From: Phreatobacter stygius
GTDB taxonomy: Bacteria; Pseudomonadota; Alphaproteobacteria; Rhizobiales; Phreatobacteraceae
Direction of reading: 5' to 3'
Assembly: GCF_005144885.1 (NCBI RefSeq)
Contig: NZ_CP039690.1
Coordinates: 62,001 to 126,000 of the forward strand
Length of the DNA stretch: 64,000 nucleotides
Under the pieces are notes generated by a model. That model did no database searches. It saw only the letters and a program-made list of their open reading frames with translations, and was not told where the DNA came from. The position numbers and the translations under genes are program-made. Shown piece after piece: positions 31,449 through 34,317 of the stretch. Numbering within the stretch: position 1 is the stretch's first letter; the number at the start of each line of letters is the position of its first letter.

Positions 31449-31480
31449 CCTCGTCTTGGCCGGGCTTGTCCCGGCCATCC
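31449..31480 (+). repeat. Palindromic REP R1
   Basis: CTCGTCTTGGCCGGG-CTTGT-CCCGGCCATCC type palindrome, the first of eight copies in the 31.4-34.3 kb island. It is followed by a GIY-YIG gene remnant. Confidence 0.8.
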
Positions 31481-31485
31481 GCGCG

Positions 31486-31620
31486 TCAGGTCAGTCGACC
31501 ATAGAGATCGGTCCAATCCGGGTTTTCCGCAAGGATCAGTCGGACCTTCGCGATGCTCCCATGCGCGACGCGACAGGCCGCTCGTCGCGCCGATATGGAG
31601 CGCGCCATTTCCCCGCACAC
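31486..31620 (-). pseudogene. GIY-YIG nuclease gene remnant A (internally deleted)
   Basis: The 3' part (KVRLILAENPDW, stop at 31486) is joined directly, in a different frame, to a piece of the middle (LSRRAWEHREG). About 150 bases of the gene are missing and the reading frame is broken. It is linked to REP R1 at its 3' side only. Confidence 0.7.
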
Positions 31621-31638
31621 GTCTCCCTGCAGATTATT

Positions 31639-31669
31639 CTCGTCTTGGCCGGGCTTGTCCCGGCCATCC
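31639..31669 (+). repeat. Palindromic REP R2 (left bracket of unit B)
   Basis: Same palindrome as R1, followed by ACGAATTC and then the stop codon of GIY-YIG copy B. With R3 in inverted orientation it brackets a 443-base unit. Confidence 0.85.
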
Positions 31670-31675
31670 ACGAAT

Positions 31676-31971
31676 TCAGCCGAGTTGGTCATAGAGATCG
31701 ACCCAATCCGGGTTTCCGCGAGGATCAGCCGGACCTTCCAGGCGCGCGGCCAGTGCTTGATGTTTCTCTCGCGCTGAATGGCATCCCTGATATCCTCGAA
31801 CCGCTCGAAAAAGACCAGCATCTTCAAGCCATAGCGACGCGTGAACCCAGGCATTGCGCCCTCGCGATGCTCCCATGCGCGACGCGAAAGATCGCTCTTC
31901 ACGCCGGTATAGAGCGTGCCGTTGGGCCGGTTCGTCATGATGTAGACCCAGCCACCATAGGCCCTTGGCAC
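31676..31971 (-). pseudogene. GIY-YIG nuclease gene copy B (one-base frameshift)
   Basis: Small URI-type GIY-YIG endonuclease (COG2827-like). It has the GIY/YIG strands WVYIM and LYTGV, then SRRAWEHREG and FEDIRDAIQRERNIKHW. Compared with the copy at 33757-34107 one T is missing from a TTTT run near 31713. The frame slips after VRLILAE and the native end (NPDWVDLYDQLG, stop at 31676-31678) is out of phase. The likely start is the GTG at 31971. It is bracketed by R2 and R3. Confidence 0.8.
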
Positions 31972-32050
31972 GGGAGGCGCGCCTTCTCGCAATGGTTGAG
32001 TAAAACCAAAGCGAGATAAGAACCGGTTGTTTCGATGCAGACAAGTCGTG

Positions 32051-32081
32051 GGTGGCCGGGACAAGCCCGGCCAGGACGATG
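32051..32081 (-). repeat. Palindromic REP R3 (right bracket of unit B)
   Basis: The REP palindrome in the orientation opposite to R1/R2. Flanked by CAGACAAGTCGTGG on the gene side and by a spacer starting GTTGAGCTCACG on the other side, as in R7. Confidence 0.85.
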
Positions 32082-32159
32082 TGTTGAGCTCACGCTATCT
32101 TGCGTCACCGCGCAGGCCCTGCGACCGGTCAATGCCGCGCGCGTCCCCAGGGAGCCACC

Positions 32160-32190
32160 CTCGTCTTGGCCGGGCTTGTCCCGGCCATCC
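32160..32190 (+). repeat. Palindromic REP R4 (left bracket of deleted unit C)
   Basis: Direct-orientation palindrome, 140 bases from the start of R3 to its end, giving an inverted REP pair with a spacer shared in outline with R5-R6 and R7-R8. Confidence 0.82.
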
Positions 32191-32221
32191 ACGAATTCAG
32201 CCAGGTTGGCCATCCGCGCCT

Positions 32222-32275
32222 TCAGCCGAGCTGGTCATCGAGATCAACCCGATCCGGGCCTTCCGCGAGGATCCG
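32222..32275 (-). pseudogene. GIY-YIG remnant C inside a deleted unit
   Basis: Only the last ~18 codons of the nuclease gene survive (degraded match to LAENPDWVDLDDQLG and its stop). They are fused directly to the 5' flank (ACAAGTCGTGG) and REP R5. R4-remnant-R5 is 162 bases against 443-444 for complete units. Confidence 0.65.
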
Positions 32276-32290
32276 CCGGCACAAGTCGTG

Positions 32291-32321
32291 GATATCAGGG
32301 ACAAGCCCGGGCAAGACGATG
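32291..32321 (-). repeat. Palindromic REP R5 (right bracket of unit C, degenerate)
   Basis: ATATCAGGGACAAGCCCGGG: the palindrome with several substitutions, in inverted orientation. Confidence 0.75.
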
Positions 32322-32400
32322 CGTTGAGCTCACGCCATCTTGGGTCCCCGCGCGGGCCCTTCGACCGGTCGTTCCCCGGCACATTTCCAGGGCAACGGCT

Positions 32401-32431
32401 CTCGTCTTGGCCGGGCTTGTCCCGGCCATCC
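32401..32431 (+). repeat. Palindromic REP R6 (left bracket of unit D)
   Basis: Direct-orientation palindrome followed by ACGAATTCA and the 8-bp IS256 target site GCCGAGTT. It is the left part of the unit interrupted by the IS. Confidence 0.85.
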
Positions 32432-32448
32432 ACGAATTCAGCCGAGTT

Positions 32449-33813
32449 GGTCATGTCCCGTAGCGTGGTGTAGCTGGCGCAAGGCCCCACGATCGCCGGC
32501 ATAGGCCGGGCTGGTCAGGCTGCCACGGCTGGCAGGCCGACACTAGGATCATCGCTCAGGCCGGCCATGGTTTCCAGGGTCATGTAGCGGGCCCGCTGGA
32601 CGGCCCATTCATCGTTCTGTTCGAGCAGGATCGCGCCGACGAGCCGGGCGATGGCGGCCTCGTTGGGGAAGATGCCGACCACCTCGGTCCTGCGCTTGAT
32701 CTCGCCGTTGACGCGCTCCAGCGGATTGGTGCTGTGGAGCTTCGCCCGATGTTGCGTCGGGAAGGTCATATAGGCCAGCACGTCGGTCTCGGCGGTATCC
32801 ATCAGAGCCGCCAGTTTCGGCACCGTTGGCCTGAGCTGGTCGGCGACCCGGCGCCATTGCTGGCTGGCGGCGGCGGCATCGTTCTGGGCGAAGGCGGTGG
32901 CGATGAAGGCTGAGACAACGCGCCGCCCGCTGCGGCCGGCATGGGCGAGCGCATTCCTCATGAAGTGCACGCGGCAGCGCTGCCAGGTCGCGGTGAGCAC
33001 CTTGGAGACCGCCGCCTTGATGCCTTCGTGGCTGTCGGAGACGACGAGTTTTACGCCGCGCAGGCCGCGTCTGGCCAGTTTGCGCAAGAACGCCGTCCAG
33101 AACGTCTCTGCCTCGGAGGGGCCGATATCCATGCCCAGCACCTCGCGCCGACCGTCGCCGCTTACACCGACCGCCACGATCACCGCCACCGAGACAATCC
33201 GGCCGGCCTGGCGGACCTTCACATAGGTCGCGTCGATCCACAGATAGGGCCAGTCGCCCTCGATCGGCCGGTCGAGGAACGCATGGACGCGCTGGTCGAT
33301 TTCCTCGCAGAGCCGGCTGACTTGGCTCTTCGAGATGCCGCTCATGCCCATCGCCTTGACCAGGTCATCGACCGAGCGGGTCGAGATGCCCTGGATGTAA
33401 GCCTCCTGGATCACCGCGGTCAGCGCCTTCTCGGCCAGCCGGCGCGGCTCCAGAAAGCCCGGAAAGTAGGAGCCTTTGCGTAGCCTCGGGATGCGCAGCT
33501 CGACCGTGCCGGCGCGGGTCTCCCAATCCCGCTCGCGATAGCCATTGCGCTGGGCCAGGCGGTCCGGGCTCTTCTCGCCGAAGCCGGCGCCGGCAAGGCC
33601 GCTGACCTCAAGCTCCATCAGCCGCCCGGCGGCAAAGCCGATCATCTCGCGCAGCAAATCGGCGTCGGGGCTCTTCTCCAGCAGCCCGCGCAGGTTCATC
33701 ATCTCGTCGGTCATCGGTGGATCTCTCGGTTCGGGGTTGGTCGTCGCAACCCAAACCTAACCGGCAACCGCCGATGACCACCCGTCAGTTACACCACCAG
33801 TCGGGACACGACC
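32449..33813 (-). mobile_element. IS256-family insertion sequence, 1365 bp, with 8-bp target duplication
   Basis: Terminal inverted repeats GGTCATGTCCCG (left) and, on the opposite strand, GGTCGTGTCCCG (right), both continuing into GTGGTGTA. The 8-bp direct duplication GCCGAGTT flanks it at 32441-32448 and 33814-33821. It carries one transposase gene on the minus strand. The matching duplication and intact transposase suggest a recent single insertion. The target is the last codons of a GIY-YIG gene. Confidence 0.92.
32515..33714 (-). CDS. IS256-family (mutator) transposase
   Basis: 399 residues with the DDE catalytic core of the mutator superfamily: first Asp in [11 protein letters not shown], second Asp in [14 protein letters not shown], and the C-terminal Glu in [25 protein letters not shown]. 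It has the usual N-terminal [27 protein letters not shown]. It appears full length and intact, and lies within 1365 bp bounded by terminal repeats. Confidence 0.95.
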
Positions 33814-34107
33814 GCCGAGTTGGTCATCGAGATCGACCCAATCCGGGTTTTCCGCGAGGATCAGCCGGACCTTCCAGGCGCGCGGCCAGTGCTTGATGTT
33901 CTTCTCGCGCTGTATGGCGTCCCTGATATCCTCGAACCGCTCGAAAAAGACCAGCATCTTCAAGCCGTAGCGACGCGTGAACCCAGGCATTGCACCCTCG
34001 CGATGCTCCCAGGCGCGGCGGGAAAGGTCGCTCGCCACGCCGGTATAGAGCGTGCCGTTGGGCCGGTTCGTCATGATATAGACCCAGCCGCCATAGGCCC
34101 TCGGCAC
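33757..34107 (-). CDS. GIY-YIG endonuclease family protein (copy D), C-terminus altered by IS256
   Basis: Small GIY-YIG nuclease: WVYIM and LYTGV motifs, then SRRAWEHREG, FTRRYGLKMLVFFERFEDI and RAWKVRLILAENPDWVDLDDQLG. The GTG at 34107 is the likely start because the GIY strand begins six codons later and no ATG precedes it nearby. The IS256 insertion lies exactly between the last codon (Gly) and the native TGA. The frame therefore reads 15 extra codons into the IS before stopping at 33757. It is the only copy in the array with an intact core. Natural DNA target unknown. Confidence 0.8.
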   Translation of the reverse strand: MPRAYGGWVYIMTNRPNGTLYTGVASDLSRRAWEHREGAMPGFTRRYGLKMLVFFERFEDIRDAIQREKNIKHWPRAWKVRLILAENPDWVDLDDQLGGRVPTGGVTDGWSSAVAG

Positions 34108-34186
34108 GGGAGGCGCGCCTTCTCGCAATGGTTGAGTAAAACCAAAGCGAGATAAGAACCGGTTGTTTCGAAGCAGACAAGTCGTG

Positions 34187-34217
34187 GGTGGCCGGGACAA
34201 GCCCGGCCATGACGAGG
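34187..34217 (-). repeat. Palindromic REP R7 (right bracket of unit D)
   Basis: GGTGGCCGGGACAAGCCCGG, nearly identical to R3 with the same flanks on both sides. Without the IS and one target copy, R6 to R7 spans 444 bases, one more than R2 to R3, and that base is the frameshift deletion of copy B. Confidence 0.85.
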
Positions 34218-34286
34218 TGTTGAGCTCACGCCGTGCTGGGCCACGGGGGCGTGGCGACCGACCCTGCATGCTCCCGGGGAGCAATC

Positions 34287-34317
34287 CTCGTCTTGGCCGG
34301 GCTTGTCCCGGCCATCC
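34287..34317 (+). repeat. Palindromic REP R8
   Basis: Direct-orientation palindrome followed by ACGAATTCGG but by no gene. It ends the array about 105 bases before the oxidase gene stop and, paired with R7, forms the last inverted REP doublet. Confidence 0.8.

Follow-up and report, generated by a model that had tools for sequence, protein, structure and literature searches.

We analysed a 64,000-nucleotide stretch of Phreatobacter stygius DNA (the window), in which palindromes and small GIY-YIG nuclease genes form a tandem array. Seven exact palindromes, a decayed eighth, two units of about 444 bp carrying the nuclease gene, unit remnants and an inserted IS were confirmed there, as follows:

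31457..31477, plus strand: palindrome R1, exact copy
31493..31609, minus strand: deletion remnant of a nuclease unit after R1, from repeat families; present in the relative G104 too
31646..31666, plus strand: palindrome R2, gene-distal end of unit A, exact copy
31676..31971, minus strand: GIY-YIG gene copy A (46.2 bits to PF01541), with a frameshift close to the 3' end, where one T is missing
32053..32073, minus strand: palindrome R3, upstream end of unit A, exact copy
32074..32166, no strand: spacer common to other units, from a repeat family
32167..32187, plus strand: palindrome R4, exact copy
32208..32285, minus strand: short unit remnant between R4 and R5, from repeat families
32293..32313 (approximate), minus strand: palindrome R5, degenerate, from inverted repeats
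32408..32428, plus strand: palindrome R6, gene-distal end of unit B, exact copy
32450..33813, minus strand: IS in unit B, with the 9-bp target duplication GCCGAGTTG at 32441-32449 and 33814-33822
32515-33714: transposase-sized ORF inside the IS of unit B
33814..34107, minus strand: GIY-YIG gene copy B (50.2 bits to PF01541), frame kept, the last codons extending into the IS
34189..34209, minus strand: palindrome R7, upstream end of unit B, exact copy
34294..34314, plus strand: palindrome R8, exact copy, with a right flank similar to the one that the second palindrome has at the G104 site

The seven exact copies of TGGCCGGGCTTGTCCCGGCCA compare with a chance expectation of 0.00 on average over 100 shuffles of the sequence. 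The first-pass annotation, which had described eight alternating palindromes, was right on the order of orientations and on seven of the copies, but the eighth, R5, is degenerate: it was recognized as an inverted-repeat arm, and a search allowing up to 3 mismatches to TGGCCGGGCTTGTCCCGGCCA misses it. R1 starts a first remnant, which lacks a palindrome at its other end. When remeasured, the unit lengths agreed with those given earlier. Unit A (R2-R3), taken over the span CTCGTC...GACGATG, is 443 bp long; by the identical measure unit B (R6-R7) is 1817 bp, and 444 bp once the 1364-bp IS, which we take to belong to the IS256 family, and the 9-bp duplication are subtracted. The two units are 95% identical across 300 bp. 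The spacers, already thought to be shared between units, are indeed members of a 112-nt repeat family (81% and 67%) that takes in part of the palindrome. No transposase-sized ORF was found in unit A, and that of unit B lies inside the inserted IS.

For the gene copies, a GTG start was assumed and the gene ends were placed by hand. The frameshift had been assigned to copy B, but the missing T is in the R2-R3 copy: the C-terminus of copy A (LILAETRIGSISM) departs from the frame of the homologues, while copy B reads LILAENPDWVDL, matching them until its final residues run into the IS. Both proteins score above the curated PF01541 cut-off of 22.6 bits. Y19, Y30, R39/R40 and E77, presumably the catalytic residues of the GIY-YIG motif, are invariant across 27 aligned rows, 8 of the 35 rows first listed having been dropped. 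The nuclease model resembles UPF0213 proteins, for which the entries shown name no function, and the nuclease domain of Slx1; the best match was 1zg2 (E 1.2e-5 by sequence, 1.3e-4 by fold), with Slx1 next by fold at E >0.04. Slx1 differs in acting with Slx4 on branched DNA, according to the entry titles. A group I intron endonuclease model gave a sub-threshold match (19.6 bits, cut-off 56.05), and phage records contain no relative at 1e-8.

The palindromes have nearly constant tags and loop (GTCA...CTTG(T/A)...TCCA), and a stem that varies with compensation. In a search that left the stem open, 47 of the 53 distinct sequences listed pair at 6 or 7 of the 7 stem positions; of their 371 stem cells, 322 are paired, against a mean of 211 and a maximum of 242 in shuffles. 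The P. stygius genome contains 26 plus-minus palindrome pairs spaced 52-62 bp which, as dispersed inverted copies with a short insert, are REPINs in form only. Mapped on the protein tree, loop-letter changes number 11 (14-27 in 500 shuffles) and stem changes 28 (33-37 in shuffles), a pattern of co-inheritance that is indistinguishable from species history.

The gene-between-inverted-palindromes unit recurs outside the window. Of 80 close relatives taken, 74 were testable, and an inverted repeat surrounds the gene in 56 of these, compared with 1 of 533 shifted control windows; in a wider set, 17 of 31 loci have the bracket. With this control and the shuffle mean of 0.00 at the locus, chance inverted repeats were rejected as an explanation. 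Up to 200 bp from the gene, hairpins number 4.9-5.6 per kb; in bins beyond 600 bp the density is 0 to 0.52 per kb. The geometry is oriented: among loci of the 80 with a hairpin within 350 bp, the nearest upstream one is plus in 47 of 64 and the nearest downstream one minus in 47 of 66. Tandem units with deletion derivatives occur in S. meliloti as well as in the window, and target-like repeats surround the gene in close relatives and at the Neisseria gonorrhoeae homologue. Across genomes, palindrome-rich ones (at least five framework palindromes) make up 34 of the 63 with the nuclease and 7 of the 38 without it (p=0.0004), so palindrome-rich genomes are commoner with the nuclease, and palindromes track it, with exceptions.

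Next to these counts, syntenic sites were compared, between species or plasmids rather than between strains of one species; here the empty or solo sites that had been looked for do exist. Sphingobium TomTYG64 has a solo palindrome at the exact place of the unit in others (degenerate in TomTYG74), and the same exchange of one palindrome for palindrome-gene-palindrome separates Sinorhizobium C101 and S. meliloti Ak57. When the aligned sites of Sphingobium and Sinorhizobium were read by eye, no duplication other than the palindrome itself was noticed. The Sphingobium plasmids that carry the gene group in a single clade, nested among solo or empty ones; the polarity of gain and loss is weakly suggested by this tree, which was rooted on its longest branch, has one node at 69/70 and gives 3 versus 4 steps by hand count. 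A. lipoferum has the gene between sufB and sufC, a position where four aligned Azospirillum relatives lack it; these four and two aligned Shinella relatives have neither gene nor palindromes at sites that do not join cleanly. At the site of the window, G104 has an R1-like palindrome, the remnant that follows R1 here and one further palindrome, with no gene unit; the palindrome was not found at 10 of the 16 own-genome sites located in G104. No useful empty site came from the Rhizobium tumorigenes plasmids or the Novosphingobium plasmid, and in the 25 of 62 records listed the CIAT894 matches are to its IS or its neighbour gene. That relatives' sites hold a single hairpin or nothing suggests that the gene spreads into repeats probably recognized by the nuclease.

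Altogether, we favour, with somewhat better than even confidence, a homing-like unit of selfish type, in which a hairpin-targeting GIY-YIG nuclease of about 95 aa is bracketed by its own target and leaves solo palindromes and REPIN-like pairs behind. The bracket, its preferred geometry, the nearly constant tags and loop, the compensating stem, the syntenic gain and loss and the exact exchange in two genera support it at the level of sequence. Several observations count against it. The bracket is lacking at threshold in 18 of the 74 close relatives and 14 of the 31 wider-set loci, and is not clear around the Rhizobium tumorigenes and Planktothrix copies. Of the 41 palindrome-rich genomes, 7 are without the nuclease, each having only a single UvrC-sized GIY-YIG match, 19 nuclease-bearing genomes have zero framework palindromes, and seven site alignments between the P. 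stygius genome and G104 gave no clean empty-site join. Moreover, deletion between the arms accounts for solo sites without any insertion, and the enzyme could have a host role instead.

In an alternative reading, to which we give a minor share of belief, an Ssn-type resident host gene would target the repeats and tune recombination or DNA uptake at them, the bracket being context rather than element. The gene would then sit among palindromes because these are hot spots of recombination and gene exchange. The gonococcal homologue (49% identity over 85 aa), which we take to be the single-strand nuclease Ssn, lies among 16 dRS3-like repeats that share the GTCAT-stem-ATC frame, within 4.3 kb, and like ours is a small GIY-YIG protein. 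Work by Chenal and colleagues (2025, Nature Communications) reportedly defines Ssn as a GIY-YIG family of site-specific single-stranded DNA nucleases, the Neisseria member going with NTS repeats. These nucleases are said to cut single-stranded and not double-stranded target DNA, and the study is said to cover target cutting and natural transformation, which the Neisseria enzyme modulates. Such a role would suit the seven genomes that hold many palindromes without the nuclease, and ordinary homologous exchange could produce gains and losses at sites; it fits poorly with the oriented geometry, the tandem units with deletion derivatives and the exchange of one palindrome for exactly palindrome-gene-palindrome. 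A palindrome-bracketed unit, solo/unit exchange and REPIN-like derivatives are not known to have been described for Ssn. If the gonococcal protein is indeed Ssn, the system is not wholly uncharacterised, and the earlier statement that a nuclease partner of REPs had not been characterised was too strong.

A pure deletion history, in which the units are old, solo and empty sites arose by arm recombination, slippage or loss of intergenic DNA, and nothing spreads now, appears improbable to us. Arms of near-identical sequence, whichever way they are oriented, would make deletion easy, remnants are present in the window and in S. meliloti, and some copies are broken (copy A of the window, and that of Sphingobium TomTYG73, by a one-base gap). 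The nesting of the gene-bearing Sphingobium plasmids within solo and empty ones, and the sufB-sufC position peculiar to A. lipoferum among its aligned relatives, speak against it.

RAYTs showed no association with the palindromes: 5 of 12 genomes with a RAYT and 36 of 89 without one are palindrome-rich (p=1), and PF01797 (E<=1e-5) is missing in 36 of the 41 palindrome-rich genomes. The single RAYT-like gene of P. stygius (76.5 bits to NCBIfam NF047646, below the cut-off of 80) sits between inverted repeats unrelated to the array palindrome, no copy of which turned up in the 3.3-kb locus of this gene when as many as 5 mismatches were allowed. On these grounds RAYT was rejected as the palindrome partner, and the idea that the palindromes are REPs moved by a RAYT (HUH) or another transposase, with the GIY-YIG gene as a passenger, is very unlikely despite the REP/REPIN-like architecture and that one RAYT-like gene, the association test having covered RAYT only.

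The homing-like unit resembles known systems. With REP/REPIN-RAYT systems it has in common the singlet, inverted-pair and gene-flanking forms of one constant-tag hairpin, and one or few enzyme genes for many non-coding copies; the enzyme here is a GIY-YIG nuclease and not an HUH transposase. With homing endonucleases of the I-TevI type it shares the GIY-YIG fold, and insertion at a recognized site would fit homing; it differs from them in that no intron, intein or separate DNA-binding domain was seen here and that the target is a dispersed repeat, which persists in the unit as its two arms. No paper of the collection searched combines GIY-YIG with repetitive extragenic palindromic sequences, and no such system appears among the titles and abstract openings listed. 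The excerpted text of PMC3898611 describes neisserial dRS3 repeats and NIMEs as short palindromes in intergenic arrays, as here, with about 700 copies per meningococcal genome, and dRS3 as the target of Nf1 phage integration; that excerpt gives no link between dRS3 and a nuclease.

Under the homing-like reading, the nuclease would cut the palindrome when single-stranded or extruded as a hairpin; it would recognize the tags GTCA/TCCA and the loop CTTGT/CTTGA, and accept a wide range of paired stems. The broken palindrome would pair with the arms of a unit elsewhere, and repair would copy the unit in. Recombination of the two near-identical arms would remove the gene and leave a solo palindrome, internal deletion would give inverted pairs like REPINs, and unequal exchange of direct copies could build tandem arrays like that of the window, whose copies then decay. 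Both the cutting and the movement of the unit are what we infer from sequence comparison. Mobility, offered as an inference in the first-pass annotation, is better supported now but stays putative.

We put forward more tentatively, and at less than even odds, that these units belong to a widespread, unrecognized kind of mobile element, GIY-YIG hairpin nucleases homing into GTCA-stem-TCCA palindromes, which would have seeded the REP-like repeats found in many Alphaproteobacteria and, probably, those of dRS3-like type in Neisseria and others. Nuclease and host repair would then do what RAYTs do with a transposase; since tags and loop would carry recognition, the stem would be free to drift, and new repeat families could therefore arise through compensated stem changes.

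REP-like palindromes are common repeats of bacterial genomes, and, to our knowledge, RAYTs are the source accepted for them. If a nuclease family does home into its palindromes, the origin of the repeats in RAYT-free genomes would be explained, REPIN-like elements would have a second, simpler route of origin, and the origin of neisserial-type repeats would become testable, the solo/unit exchange sites being ready-made substrates for testing homing.

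In the window array, TGGCCGGGCTTGTCCCGGCCA recurs seven times without mismatch, where shuffling predicts no occurrence, and there is also one decayed palindrome copy. As the first-pass annotation had described, these eight palindromes bracket GIY-YIG units. Two genes (PF01541, 50.2 and 46.2 bits) and two remnants are present, and the annotation's unit lengths of 443 and 444 bp were measured the same once the 1364-bp insertion sequence (IS) and one copy of the 9-bp duplication were subtracted. The frameshift that it had placed in copy B, the gene between palindromes R6 and R7, is actually in the R2-R3 copy, judged by the C-terminal frame of the homologues, which is kept in the R6-R7 copy and lost in the R2-R3 copy. 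The IS (window 32450-33813, with the 9-bp duplication) sits at the very end of copy B and therefore the copy B ORF continues into it.

In the whole P. stygius genome (7.35 Mb, one contig), the window palindrome occurs 97 times at no more than 2 mismatches, versus once for the reversed control. Among 40 palindrome neighbours at distances of up to 200 bp, the orientation is plus-minus in 27, minus-plus in 9 and direct in 4; 26/27 of the plus-minus ones are spaced 52-62 bp, and thus many REPIN-like inverted pairs exist without a gene. A second inverted-pair family has unlike arms, TGGCCGTGCTTGTCACGGCCA and TGGCCGGCCTTGTGCCGGCCA, which in most cases lie exactly 54 bp from each other; it is present in many copies and may be a REPIN-like element with fixed arms that spread recently. 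Examples are:
C1:584094-584168, pair of the second family
C1:927417-927491, pair of the second family
C1:1604367-1604441, pair of the second family

Four PF01541 matches occur in the genome; besides the two in the window there is one at 464600, and the last is in a UvrC-sized frame of 680 residues. The third nuclease (G000:C1:464290-465150, locus L001 1190-2050) is 49% identical to that of the window and has on both sides copies of another palindrome, GTCACCCCCGGC...GGGGGTCCAGG, which is longer than that of the window; the copy at L141, a same-genus locus, is surrounded by the same palindrome type.

The association of nuclease and palindrome is real, widespread and well beyond chance. Relatives were the best 80 of 123 from one contig scan, selected for their resemblance to the protein in the window, many of them MAGs; 6 of the 80 loci did not have 250 bp on one side, leaving 74. 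An inverted repeat across the gene (score of at least 16) was found in 56 of these 74. Of 533 control windows, shifted in position inside these loci, one reached this score, and it lies in L107, where a second gene copy is present. In a second set of 31 (30 order-level loci and L001), 17 passed the same test, and window copy B is among the 14 failures because the IS pushes R6 out of range. Around the 80 genes, hairpin density was 4.9-5.6 per kb up to 200 bp away; it was 1.0-1.1 per kb between 200 and 400 bp, and bins beyond 600 bp had 0-0.52 per kb. In Aestuariivirga (L112 2624-3866), the nuclease gene lies within a tandem run of inverted palindrome pairs spaced at about 45 bp. On a Planktothrix plasmid (L196 2672-3588), a nuclease relative with TGTCATTCTGAG-type repeats nearby lies between a type IIL restriction gene (MmeI) and DISARM drmA. 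The sizes of three records labelled plasmid (NZ_CP119140.1, NZ_AP026896.1 and CP090106.1; 2.2-4.9 Mb) suggest chromosomes, as do gltA, lpxB and lpxA on CP090106.1.

Among 72 palindromes, one per locus having one, GTCA (94-97% per position) and TCCA (88-97%) were conserved and the stem was variable. The fifth loop base was T in 37 and A in 30; CTTG was at 100%, a figure that tests neither this motif nor pairing because the scan required both. Pairing is testable with GTCAT-N7-CTTG-N8-ATCCA, a pattern that leaves the stem open and was found in 60/101 genomes of the order (reversed control, 0/101). Among the matches listed, from 12 genomes, 47 of 53 distinct sequences had at least 6 of 7 stem positions paired, with 322/371 paired stem cells over the 53; shuffles averaged 211 and did not exceed 242.

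We compared the nuclease (alignment, E<=1e-10) and the RAYT family (PF01797, E<=1e-5) in these 101 genomes, P. stygius included, where they matched 63 and 12 genomes, respectively. At least five framework palindromes (GTCA-stem-CTTG loop-stem-TCCA type) were present in 34/63 genomes with the nuclease versus 7/38 without (p=0.0004); p was 0.007, 0.0002, 0.002 and 0.036 at thresholds of 1, 3, 10 and 20, and 0.0008 when the two weakest nuclease matches were dropped (33/61 versus 8/40), all values being optimistic because the genomes are related. For PF01797, no association with palindromes was seen in the 101 genomes (at least five in 5/12 with versus 36/89 without, p=1). The seven palindrome-rich genomes without nuclease, each with one PF01541 match in a UvrC-like frame of 656-778 residues, count against an exclusive pairing. 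Nineteen nuclease-bearing genomes have zero framework palindromes, and some of their loci carry other palindromes (e.g., L121, L134, L135, L144). The single PF01797 gene of P. stygius (RAYT-like; G000:C1:6071804, L035 1130-1920) lies between unrelated inverted repeats, GGTGACACGTACCTA, and transposase-like ORFs adjoin it.

The evidence is good that palindromes are sites where units are gained and lost. At the window's site in the same-genus genome G104 (flanks 85-89% identical), we found a palindrome like R1, the remnant known from the window and a further palindrome, with a left flank resembling that of R2 and a right flank resembling that of R8, and no gene unit; G104 has only one, weak, nuclease relative (1.6e-13). 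Of 19 P. stygius sites sought in G104, 16 were located; by reading of the comparison, 6 of them (L018, L024, L025, L027, L028, L029) carry the palindrome, and at the other 10 it was not found. None of seven aligned sites showed a clean join, which indicates turnover and leaves insertion unproven.

The mobility proposed in the first-pass annotation gained support from other genera, where solo palindromes were seen in Sphingobium and Sinorhizobium and gene and palindromes were both missing from aligned Azospirillum and Shinella relatives. In three aligned Sphingobium plasmids (of 7 gene-bearing ones listed), one arm, GTCA-CCCCGGG-CTTGA-CCCGGGG-TCCC, is followed by the gene and the other arm, GGGA-CCCCGGG-TCAAG-CCCGGGG-TGAC (loop GCAAG in TomTYG46). 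Exactly where these hold the unit, TomTYG64 has one palindrome, GTCACCCCGGGTCAAGCCCGGGGTGAC, TomTYG74 a degenerate one, and TomTYG72 and TomTYG65 none. S. meliloti Ak57 has an array much like that of the window (palindrome, gene remnant, palindrome, spacer, palindrome, gene, palindrome, spacer, palindrome); in Sinorhizobium C101, the first bracket is represented by a solo palindrome and the remainder by one that is degenerate. In Azospirillum lipoferum (L202 1854-2472), the gene is flanked by inverted palindrome pairs and located between sufB and sufC of the suf operon, and neither gene nor this palindrome was found there in the four aligned relatives (A. ramasamyi, A. oryzae, B510, A. thermophilum), the join not being clean because spacer DNA differs too. 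Two aligned Shinella plasmids carry the gene and four palindromes, both absent from 2 aligned relatives (of 5 listed with a shortened match), again with no clean join.

At the level of sequence, these comparisons establish the bracket, a constrained hairpin and gain or loss of units, and in two genera they show a single palindrome exchanged for palindrome-gene-palindrome. Deletion by recombination would yield the same solo sites because, read in either orientation, the two arms hardly differ. In a tree of two flanking genes, the three gene-bearing Sphingobium plasmids form one clade (100/100), which nests in the others if the root is set on the longest branch (TomTYG65); a step count by hand gave 3 for gain at an existing palindrome and 4 for the reverse, with one node at 69/70. 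Gain and deletion probably both occur. Homing is the best-supported mechanism, if unproven: the nuclease would cut the palindrome as a hairpin or single strand, and repair would then copy the unit into the cut palindrome. The nearest match to an AlphaFold2 model of the nuclease (pLDDT 86) is a UPF0213 protein (E 1.3e-4), followed, with E above 0.04, by another UPF0213 protein and an Slx1 domain; the predicted fold allows a structure-dependent nuclease.

The Br-REP elements of Bradyrhizobium (PMC5082802) differ in sequence from these palindromes, and the text of that paper never uses the word nuclease. A literature search found no paper with both 'GIY-YIG' and 'repetitive extragenic palindromic'. 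A gonococcal homologue, 49% identical over 85 aa, is surrounded by 16 dRS3-like repeats within a 4.3-kb stretch, and each of the 16 has the sequence GTCATTCCC...GGGAATC on either the plus or the minus strand. A GIY-YIG family, Ssn, was reportedly described in 2025 as cutting single-stranded DNA at the Neisseria repeat NTS, and is said to have many homologues with matching targets. If that description holds, the pairing of nuclease and repeat is already known, and what is added here would be the unit bracketed by palindromes, the solo and paired forms derived from it, its tandem decay and the free stem.
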